Positions 1-5,687 of a DNA stretch of 5,687 nt are shown here, piece by piece. Under the pieces are notes generated by a model that was not told where the DNA came from, searched no databases, and saw nothing but the letters and a program-made list of their open reading frames with translations. The position numbers and the translations under genes are program-made. The DNA comes from Pseudomonadota bacterium (GTDB taxonomy: Bacteria; Pseudomonadota; Gammaproteobacteria; Halothiobacillales; Halothiobacillaceae), in contig JAJYPA010000531.1 in assembly GCA_021795795.1 (NCBI GenBank), forward strand, positions 1-5,687. The letters are read 5' to 3'. Positions within the stretch are counted from its first letter, which is position 1, and each line of letters begins with the position of its first letter.

Positions 1-300
1 ATGGTGGTTGTATGCTGAAACGCGGCGAAAACTAACAGCAAACCTTCAGCAATTAAAACGTTGTTTTATCGTCGCGGGGACAACAAAGCACCTTAATTTC
101 TCTGTGACACTAACGGATCGAGTGTTCTTGCAGAACGTTTACGTACTGACTACGGAACGATGGGATATATTTTCTGTTGTCCAATCCACACCACACGAAG
201 TCTGGGCGCGTAAATATAGTGGTGCACTTGAGACTCGACTTCATTACACGCCTACAGACTGCTTTGCGAATTTCCCCTTTCCCGAAGGGCTCTGGCAAAC
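1..300. other. Low-GC segment within the methyltransferase gene
   Basis: By hand count, bases 1-300 are about 46% G+C (1-240 about 45%), while 301-540 are about 62%. Codons change from AT-ending forms to mostly C-ending forms. The step falls just after the FPFP motif (272-283), which ends the target-recognition region in this family. It therefore looks like a recombination joint rather than gradual drift. Confidence 0.6.
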
Positions 301-1330
301 CGCCAATCCCGCTTTAGCCAACCTCGGCGAGCGCTACCACGAACACCGCCGCGCCCTCATGCGCCAGCTCTGGCTCGGCCTCACCGACATCTACAACCTG
401 TTCCACACCCGCGACCTTACCCTCACCCAAGTCGCCAAGGTCAGCAAGAAATCTGTTGAGGAATCCGAAGCCGGCTACCAAGGCATCCTCGAACTACGCC
501 GCCTGCATCGCGAACTCGACAACGCCATCCGCGACGCCTACGGCTGGTCCGATCTCGACCTCGGCCACGATTTCGTTGAGGTCGAAACCCTCCCCGAAAA
601 TGACCGCATCCGCTACACCATCAGCCCTACCGCGAGAAAAGAAGTTTTGAAACGTCTCCTGGCAGAAAACCACCGCCGCGCCGCCGCTGAGGCAACAGCC
701 GCTGCAATGCTCGCGCCTGCCAAGAAAACACGCACCAAGAAGGTCAAAACCGCAGCCCCCATGGAGGATTTGTTTGATATGGACATTGCTGTTTCGGCAC
801 CCCCAGCGGCTACCGTCAAGACCGGCCAGACTGGCCTCTCCGGTCTTGCTGATGGGGCTTGGGAAAGACCGGGTGCAGACCAGCTGAATGAGGTAACCGC
901 GGTGTTGGCGGCAGTTCTCAAGGCTAATGGTAGTCCCATGCCCAAGCGTGATATCCGGCTGGCGTCTGTGCTCACTTTGCAGCCCAGGTTGCTCATTCCA
1001 TCTTTATCCGCCGATGAGGCCGCGCAGTGGCGGCGCTTGATTGGCAATGAGGGGGAATCACTGGCGGCAGATGTCAAAGCGCTGCAGCCCCCAGCAGATC
1101 ATTTTTGGGGTAATGCTGTTCGAGGACTGCTCGGGCGAGGCCGTATGGTCGAAGATTCCGCTGCCCAGACTTGGGCGCCAGGCGAGGGGCTGGATACTTA
1201 CCTCACCGAAGGCTGGCCCGAGGGACGGGTTGGCATGGTGCTGCGTGTGCTGCGCCAACGCGGCCCTGAGAAGGTTGTAGAAAGTTTGTCTGAAGAGTTC
1301 CGGGAGTGGTTGAGTGTCCGCGCAGCTTGA
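2..1330 (+). CDS. DNA adenine methyltransferase, Eco57I/MmeI/DrmMI-like, C-terminal part (5' end outside window)
   Basis: The reading frame is open from base 2, so the true start and the catalytic SAM-binding domain (with its NPPY-type motif) lie upstream. The visible part is the C-terminal half of a large class I SAM-dependent DNA methyltransferase of the kind found in type IIG/IIL enzymes, BREX PglX and DISARM DrmMI. Supporting blocks are TTKH at about 83-94, a VVQSTPHEVWARKYSG segment near 176-223, LHYTPTDCF near 239-265 and FPFP at 272-283. These form the family's target-recognition end. A helical tail follows with LRRLHRELDNAIRDAYGW (about 491-547) and a KRLLAENHRRAAAE-like end near 690, where relatives usually stop. 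This protein continues through a Lys/Ala-rich linker (about 690-830) into an extra domain of about 150 residues that I do not recognise. The stop codon overlaps the next gene, which suggests translational coupling. The family is fairly sure; the specific enzyme and its recognition site are unknown. Restriction activity cannot be judged from this part. Confidence 0.85.
   Translation, partial: WWLYAETRRKLTANLQQLKRCFIVAGTTKHLNFSVTLTDRVFLQNVYVLTTERWDIFSVVQSTPHEVWARKYSGALETRLHYTPTDCFANFPFPEGLWQTANPALANLGERYHEHRRALMRQLWLGLTDIYNLFHTRDLTLTQVAKVSKKSVEESEAGYQGILELRRLHRELDNAIRDAYGWSDLDLGHDFVEVETLPENDRIRYTISPTARKEVLKRLLAENHRRAAAEATAAAMLAPAKKTRTKKVKTAAPMEDLFDMDIAVSAPPAATVKTGQTGLSGLADGAWERPGADQLNEVTAVLAAVLKANGSPMPKRDIRLASVLTLQPRLLIPSLSADEAAQWRRLIGNEGESLAADVKALQPPADHFWGNAVRGLLGRGRMVEDSAAQTWAPGEGLDTYLTEGWPEGRVGMVLRVLRQRGPEKVVESLSEEFREWLSVRAA
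1302..1306 (+). promoter_or_regulatory. Shine-Dalgarno site for the SMC-like ATPase gene
   Basis: GGGAG lies seven bases before the GTG at 1314, inside the end of the methyltransferase gene. A TGA in the ATPase frame at 1311-1313 lies immediately upstream of that GTG, so no longer N-terminus is possible. Together these fix the GTG as the start. Confidence 0.7.
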
Positions 1331-3290
1331 TTTGCTGCCGCGCGCCGGGGTGGAAGTGCGCTCCGAACCAGGCCGTATGGGGCCACGCTTCTGGGTGCGC
1401 CGTCTGGTGATATGGGAAAAACCGGGGGTATTGCTGCGTGAAAATTTCCTGCGTCCAGGCCTCAACATCGTCTGGTCTCCCGATCCTGCTGACCAAGGCC
1501 AGACAATAAAATCCGAAAGCAACTTGGGGCACGGCAGTGGAAAAACCCTGTTCTGCCGCCTGCTGCGCTATGTGCTGGGGGAAGATCGCTTCTCGCCGGA
1601 CGACCAGCGCTTCCGCATTGCCCAGGCTTACCCGGAGGGTATGGTGGGCGCCGAGGTGATGATCGACGGCACGCAATGGGCCGTGCTACGGCCAATCGGC
1701 AGCGGTCGCCATCATTACGCTGTGCCGGATATGGGACTTGAGCAGGTACTTACAGGCGATATTGCTGCCACTGGCATCACTCCATTCCTGAAAGCGGTTG
1801 AGGGCAGCATCCTCTCCAAGGATGTGGTGGCGTTGGTTCCCGTTGAGCACCCGCTGCAAGCCTGGCTGGTGGCGCTAGCCTGGCTATCTCGGGATCAGGA
1901 ATGTCGTTTCGACAAGGTGCTGGATTGGCGGTCTCCTGACTCCGATTCCGACTCTCCGGCGCGCGGGCTATCGACAACCAAACTCCTTGACGCATTGCGT
2001 GGCCTAATCGGTGCCATCGTCCCTGAGGAATACAGATTACGCGCTGAAATAGGCGAATTGGAAACCCACCAGAAAGAGGTGGCACAGGAAGCCGCTCGCC
2101 AGGTATGGGAGATGGAACGGTTACGCACGCGCTTGATAGCCGAGCTGGAACTGAACCCCAATGATCTACTACCAGGCCGCTTGTCGGTGGAGCCCTTGCG
2201 GCAAGCTGCCAAGGCTAGGCTGACACGATTGGCTGCCGTCTTGCCGAGTGTAGACGTGACTGATCTGGATGGGCTTCGATCTCGGGCCGATGAAGCTAAA
2301 CAACAAGTAGAAAATTTGAAACATGCCTTGGCTGGGATTGGCGCGCGCATCCCCGAAATCGAAACCTTGATCCGGCAAATCAAGGGAGAGCGCCCAGGCC
2401 TGTCAGTGGAAATCGATAATCGGGAAAATCCTCTTTGCCCGGTCTGCGATGTGCCTATCAGCCGCGCACTTGCCGAGGGCTGCAACTTGTCCCACAAGCT
2501 GCCCGACCTGGACACAGCAAAGCAACGCCTTGAGCAACTCAATCGAGACCTGGCAGCAGAAGAATCTCGCCTCCGTAGCAACCAATTAGATCAGGAACGA
2601 CTCCGGCAAGAGCTGTCTCCTGCGCTTGAGCAGTCTTCTGCGTTGCAGCAGCAGGTACGTGATGTCGAGCGTAGCCGAGATGAGCGATCCGATATTTGGT
2701 TTAATACACGGCGATTGCTCGATGATGCCAATCGCTTGGAAGAGGGCTTATTGGCACAGGAGGGGAAACACGCCAATGCAGAGGAATTGACCAAGGCAAT
2801 TGAGCTGAAACGCGAACAGGCCGCTGCGTTCCGTGATGCGCAGGCCGATGTATTTGCCCGCCTGTCCAATTTCTTCGATGCCATTATCCGCGAGATGGTC
2901 GGCCCCAATGCTGGTGGCAAAGTCACGCTCGATGGTAATGGACTAAAGTTATCGGTCGAGTTGGGTGGCGACCGCTCCACAGCGGCAATTGACTCCCTGA
3001 AAGTAATCGCCTTCGACTTGGCAGTGATGTGCATGAGCATCCAGGGCGACACTCGTTTACCTGCCTTCCTGATACATGACAGCCCGCGTGAGGCTGATTT
3101 GGGCTTGAGTGTTTACCATAGACTGTTCCACGTGGTTCGAAATCTGGAGCAAACTGAAAATCAGCCACTTTTCCAGTACGTCGTTACCACCACCACACGC
3201 CCACCCGACGATTTGGTGGAAAAGCCGTGGCTATGCGACAAGCTGGGAGGCTCGCCAGCAGAGGCGAGGCTTTTAAGGCGAGACCTATAA
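1314..3290 (+). CDS. SMC/Rad50-like ABC ATPase with zinc hook (DUF2326/ABC-3C-like)
   Basis: A 658-residue soluble protein with split ATPase halves around a coiled-coil arm. The Walker A motif GHGSGKT is at residues 72-78, preceded by a strand typical of the group (GLNIVWS, 49-55). Gln/Glu/Arg-rich helices likely to form coiled coil cover about 240-360 and 400-510, separated by CPVC at 375-378, a Rad50-type zinc hook expected to dimerise two arms. The Walker B region is FLIHDSPRE (585-593), where HDS stands in place of the usual D-E pair. No LSGGQ-type signature is present; the corresponding region is STAAIDSLKVIAFDLAV (555-571). The H-loop position reads VVTTTTRPP (623-631). The HDS motif and the missing signature resemble DUF2326-type ATPases of ABC three-component conflict systems. 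That assignment is from motif memory, so the subfamily is tentative. It starts at a GTG overlapping the methyltransferase by 17 bases, so the two are probably made in proportion. A DNA-sensing or DNA-loading role is inferred from Rad50/SMC architecture and context. Confidence 0.85.
   Translation: MSAQLDLLPRAGVEVRSEPGRMGPRFWVRRLVIWEKPGVLLRENFLRPGLNIVWSPDPADQGQTIKSESNLGHGSGKTLFCRLLRYVLGEDRFSPDDQRFRIAQAYPEGMVGAEVMIDGTQWAVLRPIGSGRHHYAVPDMGLEQVLTGDIAATGITPFLKAVEGSILSKDVVALVPVEHPLQAWLVALAWLSRDQECRFDKVLDWRSPDSDSDSPARGLSTTKLLDALRGLIGAIVPEEYRLRAEIGELETHQKEVAQEAARQVWEMERLRTRLIAELELNPNDLLPGRLSVEPLRQAAKARLTRLAAVLPSVDVTDLDGLRSRADEAKQQVENLKHALAGIGARIPEIETLIRQIKGERPGLSVEIDNRENPLCPVCDVPISRALAEGCNLSHKLPDLDTAKQRLEQLNRDLAAEESRLRSNQLDQERLRQELSPALEQSSALQQQVRDVERSRDERSDIWFNTRRLLDDANRLEEGLLAQEGKHANAEELTKAIELKREQAAAFRDAQADVFARLSNFFDAIIREMVGPNAGGKVTLDGNGLKLSVELGGDRSTAAIDSLKVIAFDLAVMCMSIQGDTRLPAFLIHDSPREADLGLSVYHRLFHVVRNLEQTENQPLFQYVVTTTTRPPDDLVEKPWLCDKLGGSPAEARLLRRDL
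3249..3274 (+). promoter_or_regulatory. GC-rich hairpin followed by TTTT at the junction of the two ATPase genes
   Basis: CTCGCC (3251-3256) and GGCGAG (3263-3268) form a perfect six-pair stem with a six-base loop. After one G-G mismatch, further pairs with 3270-3271 extend it outward, and TTTT follows at 3271-3274. It looks like a weak intrinsic terminator or attenuator lying within the last codons of the SMC-like gene, just before the nuclease gene. The U-tract is short and the stem is also coding sequence, so it may be accidental or may only shape translation or mRNA stability. Confidence 0.3.
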
Positions 3291-3295
3291 ATCCA

Positions 3296-5605
3296 ATGAA
3301 ACAAGTTCCAATCACCCGGATCAGTCGAATCAAAGGGCATCGCATCTTTCGAGAGTTTTCCTGGCCAGTCGACCTGCACGAATTTGGCCGGTTCAATCTT
3401 ATCTTTGGATGGAACGGCTCGGGTAAATCCACACTCGCGGGCCTCTTTCAAAGTCTCGAAAAACGCGCAGCCATTACCGAGGGGTCGATTGAGTTCACGA
3501 TCAACGGCAACGCAGTTGCAGGCTCGACTCTTTCTACAGCAGCGGGCTTGCCAGTGGTGCGTGTCTTCACCCGTGACGGCGTCAACGCCAGTGTGTTCGC
3601 TGCCGGTTCACCGTTGGCACCAATCTATTATTTCGGCGAAGGGAACGTCGAGAACGAAAAGCGGCTTGATGAGCTCAAGGCTGAGCGCACCAAGACCGAG
3701 GTTGAACATGCCAACGCACAAAGGGGTAAGCAAAGTAAGGACAAGGAGCTTGAACAGTTCTGCACCGATCAAGCTAAATCCATCAAGGATTTACTGACGG
3801 CTCCGGGTAGTCCTTACAACAACTATGACCGGCGAGCCTTCCGCACGAAGTGCGACGCCCTTAACAAGGGGGACTATTCGTCCAAGCTGCTTTCCGATGA
3901 GGAGAAGAGCCGCCTGATGCATCAGAAGGGGGCTCAGGCAAAGCCCAAGGTTGAGCTAATTGCTGATGTTATGCCTCGGCTGGCCGACCTGACGCATGAC
4001 ATAAGAGTCCTGCTGCGGAAAACAGTTATTTCTCAGGTGATCGACTGCCTTGTTTCCCTCCCCAAGGTAGCTGCATGGGTGCAAGAGGGGTTGGCATTGC
4101 ATCCGCATGATGCTGGCCCGGTAGACTGCCAGTTTTGCGGGAATGCCCTATCGCCCGAGCGTATTCAGGCACTGGAGGCGCACTTCAACGACCAGTACAA
4201 CAGTTTCATCCAAGAACTTGATAAAACGAATTCCAGGGTAGAAGCCGCTCTCCGTTCAGTAAACAGCACTCAATTCCCTGATCCTGCCAAGCTCTACGAC
4301 CACCTGGCACCCTCGTATCAGGGAACCCAAGGCATGTGGAATAAGTCTCTGGATAGACTGCGTGACATCCTTTCGTCGTTGGGATCGGCGCTCATGGCAA
4401 AGCGTGACAAACCGTTTGAGTCCCTTGACCTGGACAGCTTTATAGTCGGCAAGGACAGCGATGCGGATAAGGCCTCGCGAGAACAACTTGGCCGCCTCAA
4501 CCGCTTCATCGAACAGCATAACCAGCACACTCAAGATTTCCAGCGAACCGTGGATAGCGCACGAAAAGGCCTGGAGGAATGTTTCGTTGCCGAGGCTATG
4601 ACCCGATTCAAAGGAATTCTTACGGCAACGCAGAACGAAGAAGCCCGCGTTCGCTCCGCCGACGAAAAAGTGAGACAGCTCAAACAACAGATTTCAACGT
4701 TGGAGCGCACCCTGATCGAACACCTAACCCCAGCAGATGAACTCAATGCCGAATTACGGAGCTTTCTTGGCCGAGCTGATATCACTCTGGCGGTGAAGGA
4801 CACCGGCTATACAATCACCCGCCAAGGCCAACCGGCATCTAACCTGAGCGAGGGCGAGAAAACGGCCATTGCATTCCTCTATTTTCTGAAATCATTGCAG
4901 GACAAGTCCATCAAGATCGAAGAAAGCGTAGTGGTGATTGACGACCCCATTTCAAGCCTGGATTCGAATGCGTTGTTCAGCGCCTTTGGCTACATGAAGA
5001 TGCGCACCAAGGATGTCCGCCAGTTATTCATACTGACGCACAGCTTCAGTTTCTTTGGGCAGGTCAAAAACTGGTTTCACCACATGAAAAACCAGAAAAA
5101 ACCAGAAGTAACGAAACGTCCCGCCCGCTTTTTCATGCTTACGCGCAACCTGTCGCCCGCTGGCCCGGCATCCTGCATCACAGCCCTTCCGAAACTACTG
5201 GAGGAGCACGAGTCGGACTACCACTATCTGTTCAAGCGCATACACGAAGCTGCTAATCACGAAGGAGAACTTGATGATGCCTACCCACTGCCAAACCTTG
5301 CGCGCAGGCTAGTTGAGACGTTTCTAACCTTCCGCTATCCCAGTGTCACCGGTGACTTGGTCAAAAAATTCGACTTGGTCAGCTTCGATGAAGGAAAGAA
5401 GGTCAGGATTTTGCGATTCCTGAATGTCTTCTCACACGATAAACAGATTGGTGCAGCGGAACATGATGTGTCTTTGCTGGCCGAGGCAAAACCTGTACTG
5501 GTACAGGTGCTGGAACTGATTAAGGCCGAGGATGAACGGCATTTCGAGCAAATGATTCTTTGCCTTGGAAATAGCCCTGCCGATGGTGGCGAGGATGATG
5601 TATAG
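3296..5605 (+). CDS. RloC/PrrC-like AAA_13 ATPase with zinc hook and putative C-terminal HEPN anticodon-nuclease domain
   Basis: A 769-residue protein. The ATP-binding core has Walker A GWNGSGKS (residues 38-45), an ABC signature LSEGEK (517-522), Walker B VVVIDDPISSLDS (545-557) and the switch histidine in LTHS (580-583). A helical insert contains CQFC at 278-281, a hook-like zinc site as in RloC. The segment SIKDLL...YNNYDRRAF (about 162-182) is typical of AAA_13 proteins. The C-terminal 130 residues or so carry R670-x3-E674, and H714 closing an R707-x6-H714 motif. This matches the order of the PrrC catalytic triad Arg320-Glu324-His356, with identical Arg-to-Glu spacing, and the R-x4-6-H signature of HEPN RNases. 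Predicted role (inference): an ATP-controlled tRNA anticodon nuclease that stops translation when host DNA modification is disturbed. The ATG at 3296 is chosen because the family N-terminus begins there, five bases after the preceding stop. An in-frame GTG at 3227 would add 23 atypical residues. No good ribosome site precedes the ATG, so re-initiation from the upstream gene is likely. Family well supported; RNase activity unproven. Confidence 0.85.
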   Translation: MKQVPITRISRIKGHRIFREFSWPVDLHEFGRFNLIFGWNGSGKSTLAGLFQSLEKRAAITEGSIEFTINGNAVAGSTLSTAAGLPVVRVFTRDGVNASVFAAGSPLAPIYYFGEGNVENEKRLDELKAERTKTEVEHANAQRGKQSKDKELEQFCTDQAKSIKDLLTAPGSPYNNYDRRAFRTKCDALNKGDYSSKLLSDEEKSRLMHQKGAQAKPKVELIADVMPRLADLTHDIRVLLRKTVISQVIDCLVSLPKVAAWVQEGLALHPHDAGPVDCQFCGNALSPERIQALEAHFNDQYNSFIQELDKTNSRVEAALRSVNSTQFPDPAKLYDHLAPSYQGTQGMWNKSLDRLRDILSSLGSALMAKRDKPFESLDLDSFIVGKDSDADKASREQLGRLNRFIEQHNQHTQDFQRTVDSARKGLEECFVAEAMTRFKGILTATQNEEARVRSADEKVRQLKQQISTLERTLIEHLTPADELNAELRSFLGRADITLAVKDTGYTITRQGQPASNLSEGEKTAIAFLYFLKSLQDKSIKIEESVVVIDDPISSLDSNALFSAFGYMKMRTKDVRQLFILTHSFSFFGQVKNWFHHMKNQKKPEVTKRPARFFMLTRNLSPAGPASCITALPKLLEEHESDYHYLFKRIHEAANHEGELDDAYPLPNLARRLVETFLTFRYPSVTGDLVKKFDLVSFDEGKKVRILRFLNVFSHDKQIGAAEHDVSLLAEAKPVLVQVLELIKAEDERHFEQMILCLGNSPADGGEDDV

Positions 5606-5629: not shown

Positions 5630-5687
5630 ATGACCACAAACCCCGCTGCCCTCGACTGGCTTCGCATCGCCCTAGCCAACCCCACCG
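5630..5687 (+). CDS. Start of an unidentified protein, cut by the window end
   Basis: An ATG with a plausible ribosome site opens a frame that stays open to the window edge (19 codons plus one base). The peptide begins MTTNPAALDWLRIALANPT. Its GCC/CTC/CCC-rich codon use resembles the 300-660 part of the methyltransferase gene. Same strand and a gap of only 24 bases place it in the same operon. The fragment is too short to assign a family. In such islands the next gene could be a helicase, a nuclease or another ATPase, but nothing here decides that. Confidence 0.6.
   Translation, partial: MTTNPAALDWLRIALANPT

Follow-up and report, generated by a model that had tools for sequence, protein, structure and literature searches.

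Probable 3' part of an ARMADA Type I-like phage-defence operon with an SMC-like ATPase gene and an RloC-type gene

Introduction

ARMADA is a defence family that has only just been named. According to the available text of the preprint (Bell et al. 2025, PMC12458937), Type I consists of a YprA helicase, a BrxHII-like helicase and then a PglX-like methyltransferase and is related to DISARM; anti-phage activity is reported there for a Type II cluster. The terms "SMC", "ABC", "Lamassu" and "RloC" do not occur in the available main text of that preprint. Here we analyse a stretch of 5,687 nucleotides (the window) from a Pseudomonadota bacterium of the Halothiobacillaceae (GCA_021795795.1, contig JAJYPA010000531.1). 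It carries the end of a methyltransferase gene, a gene for an ATPase resembling structural maintenance of chromosomes (SMC) proteins, and a gene for a probable RloC-type nuclease.

Two further described families are relevant for comparison. LmuB, the SMC-like ATPase of Lamassu, has Gln in place of the catalytic Glu of Walker B (PMC10586767, in the portion available). RloC is defined, in the accessible part of PMC2610378, by the triad Arg-X3-Glu-X36-52-His with Ser before the His, a CxxC zinc hook and a length of 658-897 residues. An excerpt of PMC3710099 assigns the RloC-type nuclease to the HEPN superfamily. A DNA-break inducer activated the RloC of A. baylyi, and did so in restriction-modification (R-M) mutants too (PMC3874168, available sections).

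Results and Discussion

Layout of the window

Three long open reading frames (ORFs) lie on the same strand. ORF 1 runs off the 5' edge of the window and ends at 1330, ORF 2 (1314..3290) overlaps it by 17 bases, and ORF 3 follows after a 5-base gap and ends at 5605; the arrangement of the sequence-only reading (three genes on one strand, a 17-base overlap and a 5-base gap) was thus found again. The longest frame of ORF 3 begins at 3227. The ATG at 3296 was taken as its best start because the best PADLOC match begins at residue 29 of that frame, just past this ATG.

We read the window as the 3' portion of a phage-defence operon resembling ARMADA Type I, in an SMC-bearing variant with a coupling between a methyltransferase tail and the ATPase, and assign this full explanation a probability of about two in three. 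The observations behind it are gene order in relatives, fold, motifs and the linkage of tail and SMC gene; docking, sensing, a division of labour and cooperation with RloC would form the mechanism proposed on top of them. The features are as follows.

2..808, + strand: C-terminal part of a DrmMI/MmeI-like methyltransferase, target-recognition region (PADLOC DrmMI, Pfam MmeI_TRD, 53% identity to locus L001)
815..1330, + strand: C-terminal extension of the methyltransferase ("tail", 171 residues), proposed SMC-docking domain (no database match; accompanies the SMC gene)
1314..1330, + strand: 17-base overlap of methyltransferase and SMC genes (identical in 9 loci including the window, given the corresponding ATPase start codon)
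1314..3290, + strand: SMC/Rad50-like ATP-binding cassette (ABC) ATPase, LmuB/YydD-like, 658 residues, GTG start
1527..1547, + strand: Walker A-like GHGSGKT of the SMC ATPase (Lys77 in 69/69 relatives)
2436..2483, + strand: zinc-binding apex CPVC...C of the SMC ATPase (C375, C378, C390; each in 69/69)
3063..3083, + strand: Walker B AFLIHDS of the SMC ATPase, Ser replacing the catalytic Glu of ABC ATPases (D589 and S590 in 69/69)
3296..5605, + strand: RloC-type ABC ATPase with C-terminal nuclease domain (AAA_13, PDC-S06; motif of PMC2610378), 769 residues
4127..4138, + strand: zinc hook CQFC of the RloC-like protein (C278 and C281 in 58/58)
5303..5437, + strand: anticodon-nuclease triad Arg670-X3-Glu674-X39-His714 (R 58/58, E 58/58, H 57/58 with one gap)
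5630..5687, + strand: possible start of a further gene (ATG, open to the window end), read from the sequence

The methyltransferase fragment and the operon in relatives

ORF 1 comprises only the 442 C-terminal residues of a methyltransferase; the catalytic domain lies upstream of the window, and no catalytic motif falls within it. The first ~265 residues match DrmMI/MmeI-type enzymes (PADLOC DrmMI 4.5e-61, Pfam MmeI_TRD 9.5e-7), and the fragment shares 53% identity with the enzyme encoded in the L001 operon (E 2e-156). An Eco57I-type methyltransferase had been proposed from the sequence alone. The methyltransferase part of that proposal holds; the type is not visible in these residues and rests on the full-length relative in L001 (PF07669, 3.8e-21). 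Judged by these matches, the fragment is a member of the ARMADA methyltransferase family. The suspected kinship with class 1 DISARM also finds support.

The gene order common to L001-L005 is a DEAD/DEAH helicase of ~1720 residues, a helicase of ~930-950 residues, the methyltransferase and the ATPase. In L001, the first gene (1720 residues) has DruE as its best PADLOC models, with MZB at 23.7 bits, just under the Pfam cut-off of 24.2, and the third gene carries Eco57I/MmeI domains together with DrmMI. The ARMADA Type I order was seen in L001-L005, L085, L086, L097 and others, the window itself showing only the methyltransferase end. From these relatives, the first two genes of the window look like the end of an ARMADA Type I-like operon. 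What is shared with Type I is a homologous methyltransferase and, in the relatives, the order YprA, BrxHII-like helicase, methyltransferase. Compared with Type I as described in the available text of PMC12458937, the window has an extra SMC ATPase gene that overlaps the methyltransferase gene, and the methyltransferase has a C-terminal extension. Type II (methyltransferase, YprA and a GajB-like helicase with a RelE-like domain) does not fit, the SMC gene following the methyltransferase and no GajB model appearing among the PADLOC matches of ORF 2. Among the matches listed by open-access literature searches (in one case the best 15 of 4,153), in a collection that omits most subscription papers, we found no description of the methyltransferase-tail/SMC arrangement; MmeI, Druantia, RloC and DISARM have no occurrence in the main text of PMC12839542.

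Among 398 genomes of the A. ferriphilus phylum, a YprA query found 14 (E <= 1e-60) and an ATPase query 10 (E <= 1e-3), with 8 in common. A. ferriphilus itself (G001) was known beforehand; without it, 7/13 YprA genomes and 7/9 ATPase genomes are shared. Of the two ATPase matches that lack YprA, one is an apparently decayed remnant (G140, L054) and the other a distant match of 3e-6 (G396, L053). A translated ATPase search of 72,556 plasmid records returned 10, of which 8 were covered to at least 80%; two Priestia DUF2326 proteins among the matches are 21-24% identical, half covered and without a tail match. The YprA query found 69 plasmid records (E <= 1e-30), many of them near-duplicates; the best 60 of these 69 include 7 of the 8 ATPase records.

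Fifty stretches were compared. Seventeen are ARMADA-type loci with the ATPase (the window included) and 20 lack the ATPase and have a readable methyltransferase 3' region, a ratio that is not a frequency, the stretches having been picked partly via ATPase matches; the remaining 13 are cut by a contig edge, form a second stretch of one genome or have an incomplete set. Where present, the ATPase adjoins the methyltransferase or, in L041, L044, L046 and L051, a separate specificity-type protein.

The SMC-like ATPase

ORF 2 matches the PADLOC LmuB models (best 1.3e-17) and reaches 25.5 bits against DUF2326, under the Pfam cut-off of 28.7. In the predicted model its fold is most like those of YydD and Lamassu LmuB. 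YydD is a B. subtilis protein and a member of DUF2326; the YydD model has YydB as partner, and the neighbour of the window's ATPase is a methyltransferase. With LmuB of Lamassu and DdmABC it shares fold, length (~650 residues), a coiled coil with zinc apex and the missing catalytic Glu of Walker B, here Ser, and it is an SMC-like ATPase as expected of LmuB. It differs from Lamassu in its neighbour, a DNA methyltransferase. LmuA and LmuC were absent from the matches listed for the three ORFs (for ORF 3, the best 25 of 44), and the tail had no PADLOC match up to E 10.

Central CxxC motifs had been noted in both ATPases, and both are conserved, that of ORF 2 (C375/C378) in 69/69 aligned relatives and that of ORF 3 in 58/58. 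In the more distant ATPase set A1, C378 is kept in 15/20. Because Cys390 is also invariant (69/69) and His394 mostly kept (61/69), the zinc site of ORF 2 seems closer to a zinc knuckle with four ligands than to a simple Rad50-type hook.

An ATPase 100% identical over 97% coverage is recorded for an Acidithiobacillus sp., and that of A. ferriphilus is 77% identical; on this basis the DNA probably comes from an Acidithiobacillus or a near relative. In the order of A. ferriphilus the SMC gene occurs in 1/31 genomes, the one already known; a profile of the ATPase matched 3 of 327 genomes from one class, two of them already seen. A viral origin was considered and rejected: 14 pattern matches of the SMC query in viral contigs were not upheld by tblastn, and no relative was found in 50,697 phage records.

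The methyltransferase tail and its linkage to the ATPase

The new point of this locus is the ~170-residue tail. That of the window member has no match in Pfam (E <= 1), PADLOC (E <= 10), PHROGs (0.01) or PDB sequences (E <= 10); DUF3631 (2/11 tail members, best 0.069) and TPR_28 (1/11, 0.033) were judged chance matches. It does match the methyltransferases of L001-L005, L007, L048, L085, L086 and L097, all of which have the ATPase, and had no match in loci lacking the SMC gene (phmmer E <= 10, profile E <= 1). Beyond the conserved end of the enzyme, 157-203 residues follow in 14/14 measurable SMC-bearing proteins (4 of these being a separate specificity-type protein) versus 1-36 in 17/17 SMC-less ones. 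The end motif was built from 12 of the 17 SMC-less proteins, which makes their short remainder partly a matter of construction; the five outside motif building have remainders of 1, 26, 27, 27 and 36. A rank test gives p 2.3e-6, a value that overstates independence, the loci being related. Not measurable were the window, L001 and L002 among SMC-bearing loci and L055, L092 and L102 among SMC-less loci.

Searches outside these loci agree. Two different tails each found 8 of the 72,556 plasmid records, exactly the 8 with the ATPase at >= 80% coverage. In L006 (Paracoccus versutus), which has no other methyltransferase match, the last ~70 tail residues run into the ATPase start. The tail profile gave 2 matches in the 398 genomes (L007 and L048), both abutting the ATPase; as both belong to the query, the gain is that the tail is absent from the remaining genomes, whether they carry the ATPase or not. 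The L041-type tail had no match in plasmids. The 17-base overlap of the methyltransferase and ATPase genes recurs in nine loci (the window, L001-L005, L007, L085 and L097), provided the ATPase start is placed at the codon equivalent to that of the window. This overlap is annotated in L001-L004; the start in L005 is annotated 117 bases later, and those in L007, L085, L097 and the window were read in this analysis. Other junctions overlap by 14 (L086), 11 (L048) or 8 bases (L047) or leave a gap (L040). The tie between methyltransferase and SMC-like ATPase that the sequence-only reading had drawn is supported.

Between two groups of loci (window, L001, L002 and L007 versus L003, L004, L005, L085 and L097), identity is 42% for the tail and 46% for the ATPase, and 30% for the methyltransferase core, 25% for the last 250 residues before the tail, 34% for YprA and 38% for the BrxH-like helicase. 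Slower evolution could produce these values; a better fit is a tail-ATPase unit that moved between operon backbones. Such a move is preferred over slower evolution because YprA of L001 and L002 is more alike (96% identical) than their ATPase (89%).

The association is not confined to methyltransferases. At L042:70-8015 a gene of the ATPase family stands behind a type III modification/restriction pair. The restriction protein has an added C-terminal extension, and its last ~165 residues are homologous to the extensions of L041, L044, L046 and L051 (E 1.5e-17 to 2.1e-21). Comparison of the extension types (window, L041, L040/L047) does not support a single origin. A search for the tail as a free-standing "middle component" gave 24 short proteins as candidates; 7 were read by eye, of which P0242, P0251, P0253 and P0254 begin with the methyltransferase C-terminal motif and P0241, P0246 and P0262 do not.

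From this pattern we infer that the tail may be a docking domain that couples a DNA-marking complex to a DNA-sensing clamp. A wider generalisation is offered tentatively, as a possibility somewhat short of an even chance: a portable coupling cassette, made of a ~170-residue domain on a DNA-marking or restriction protein and an LmuB-like SMC clamp in the next gene, may have been grafted on at least three kinds of carrier (methyltransferases and separate specificity-type proteins of ARMADA, and the type III restriction subunit of L042), making the restriction complex a sensor of DNA state that would drive exchangeable effectors (RloC, HNH, reverse transcriptases).

The third gene and the slot behind the ATPase

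ORF 3 matches AAA_13 (2e-149) and PADLOC PDC-S06 (1e-250). It has the RloC triad (R670, E674, X39, SH714), a CxxC hook in a coiled coil that splits the ATPase and the size of RloC (769 residues, within 658-897); long helices flank C278/C281 on both sides in the predicted model. The product is therefore a probable anticodon nuclease, as proposed earlier from the sequence. It differs from described RloC proteins in its position behind an ARMADA-type methyltransferase and an SMC gene. PrrC, which is linked to type Ic R-M and has 341-416 residues and no zinc-hook insert, is not a match for a 769-residue protein with a hook and a neighbour that is not hsd. A fold search returned mostly generic Rad50/SMC-type heads, with no RloC or PrrC chain among the best 50 rows, which excludes nothing.

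The RloC query found 11 of the 398 genomes (E <= 1e-20), a set that shares no genome with the 14 for YprA or the 10 for the ATPase. With a chance expectation below 1, this zero overlap shows no association, not avoidance. The triad was detected in 10/11 of these loci (not in L072); the 20 kb fetched at each gave no match to YprA, BrxH, methyltransferase or SMC, and at L081 HNH was matched. At L074:4645-14119 a type I R-M locus holds an RloC relative and a 358-residue ORF, with hsdR on one side and hsdS/hsdM on the other, which resembles the PrrC layout. RloC relatives are absent from the 17 genomes of the genus of A. ferriphilus (0/17). Among 120 listed proteins of each search, one pair of close relatives of the window's ATPase and RloC lies on contigs of equal length (33,333), and the two genes probably share one more contig; a second equal length (19,247) may be coincidence.

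At other loci the place behind the ATPase is taken by HNH genes (L003-L006, L047, L048, L085, L086), by GmrSD and then HNH (L097), by a UvrD-like helicase gene (L040) or, at L007:10813-13517 in A. ferriphilus, by two genes matching the defence reverse transcriptase models UG35 and UG36. In L001, transposition genes lie ~0.7 kb beyond the ATPase, and in L002 a DUF262 gene ~0.35 kb beyond. HNH genes also stand behind SMC-less operons (L057, L090, L092-L094). For the other 16 ARMADA loci with the SMC gene, the fetched stretches showed no RloC; four of these loci (L041, L044, L048, L051) gave less than 2 kb past the SMC gene. A conserved three-gene system, as first proposed, is accordingly rejected: RloC does not recur in the fetched stretches of other SMC-bearing loci, and its 11 genomes share none with the SMC or YprA sets. 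The claim that the two-ATPase pair is new likewise lapses by the test set for it, homologues of the two being rarely found together at other loci.

Proposed mechanism and alternative explanations

In the ARMADA Type I-like reading, a YprA helicase-nuclease and a BrxHII-like helicase would be expected upstream of the window. The methyltransferase would mark host DNA and specify sites, and its C-terminal domain of ~170 residues would bind the LmuB-like SMC ATPase of the overlapping gene. The SMC dimer may act as a clamp with slow hydrolysis and detect aberrant DNA (ends, forks) on helicase-processed DNA, and this sensing would license or amplify attack. The next slot would be exchangeable; here RloC, acting by itself, would cut tRNA anticodons on meeting DNA ends, as a second line if direct restriction fails. 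If true, the docking domain would link ARMADA and a Lamassu-type clamp, two separately described defence families, and would show that defence operons swap sensors and effectors as modules.

Several points weigh against this reading. The operon is read via relatives, the window's own upstream genes lying beyond it, and the "ARMADA Type I" label rests on gene order, sizes and model matches in these relatives. The second helicase of L001 has DpdE as its best model (1.4e-183), followed by DrmD, HmaA and BrxH models. The ATPase is missing from 20/37 ARMADA loci with a readable methyltransferase end. Over 12 loci its distances correlate with those of YprA, BrxH and methyltransferase at Mantel r 0.65, 0.63 and 0.48, compared with r 0.996 for YprA-BrxH and 0.88 for YprA-methyltransferase within the backbone; this loose co-variation argues against strict, lifelong pairing and would be compatible with exchange of the cassette. 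The extra 157-160 residues of L040 and L047 have no convincing relation to either tail type, and the window tail type is at best weakly related to the L041/L042-type extension (hhalign E 0.042). Co-occurrence is not binding, and the tail could serve another purpose. RloC is not a conserved partner of the methyltransferase-SMC pair.

It is unlikely, on balance, that the genes for the SMC ATPase and RloC each work alone in defence and have merely gathered behind an ARMADA operon as in a defence island, with nothing coupled. The highly variable slot past the ATPase (HNH, UG35/UG36 reverse transcriptases, GmrSD, UvrD-like helicase) and the 11 RloC genomes without a YprA or ATPase match speak for such independence. 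For the ATPase it is opposed by the tail linkage, the constant position and the identical 17-base overlap in nine loci; moreover, a free passenger would not need an added domain on its neighbour. For RloC, independence and coupling are about as likely.

A PrrC-like guard, in which the methyltransferase-SMC complex silences the RloC-like nuclease until a phage blocks the complex and frees it, is a comparably doubtful alternative. The single operon with a 5-base gap between SMC and RloC genes and the RloC relative inside the type I R-M locus of L074 would suit it, as would the silencing of PrrC by its linked type Ic system (PMC2610378, available part). However, in A. baylyi RloC was not silenced by the R-M protein, and its activation by DNA breaks did not go through that protein (available sections of PMC3874168), and RloC is missing from the fetched stretches of the other SMC-bearing loci.

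That the locus is simply class 1 DISARM (separate drmA and drmB, PLD nuclease drmC) or BREX (pglZ and brxC) with accessory genes is very improbable. In favour of it, the methyltransferase has DrmMI as its top PADLOC model, DrmD models rank high for the second helicase of L001, and in L004 genes for a phospholipase D family protein and another helicase lie at least ~2 kb upstream of the operon. Against it, the first gene of L001 is a single 1720-residue helicase with DruE best and MZB just below cut-off, and neither the window nor the listed, incomplete annotation of L001-L005 shows a drmA, drmB, drmC, pglZ or brxC.

Further observations

Some ARMADA-type loci showed additional features. At L054:3788-4945, remnants of a BrxH-like helicase and an ATPase lie beside a full-length HNH gene, apparently a decayed ARMADA locus. 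A Nocardioides plasmid (L087:3583-29982) has annotated DISARM drmA/drmB near an ARMADA-type operon with an AAA ATPase and an McrC family gene behind it. On a plasmid of Deinococcus radiodurans MP1 (L055:12001-24471), an ARMADA-like operon has two methyltransferase genes at the third position and adjoins an insertion sequence. In A. ferriphilus (L007:2919-4532), a 537-residue ORF without a match in the reference sets lies between the second helicase and the methyltransferase.

Within the window, no promoter-like site was found, and terminator-like matches numbered 4 against 6.8 expected by chance. The RloC gene has a GC content of 52% and the ATPase gene 57%, with third-position GC alike, which is not informative. 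An ATG 24 bases past the RloC stop opens a frame that leaves the window at 5687, and the operon may go on.

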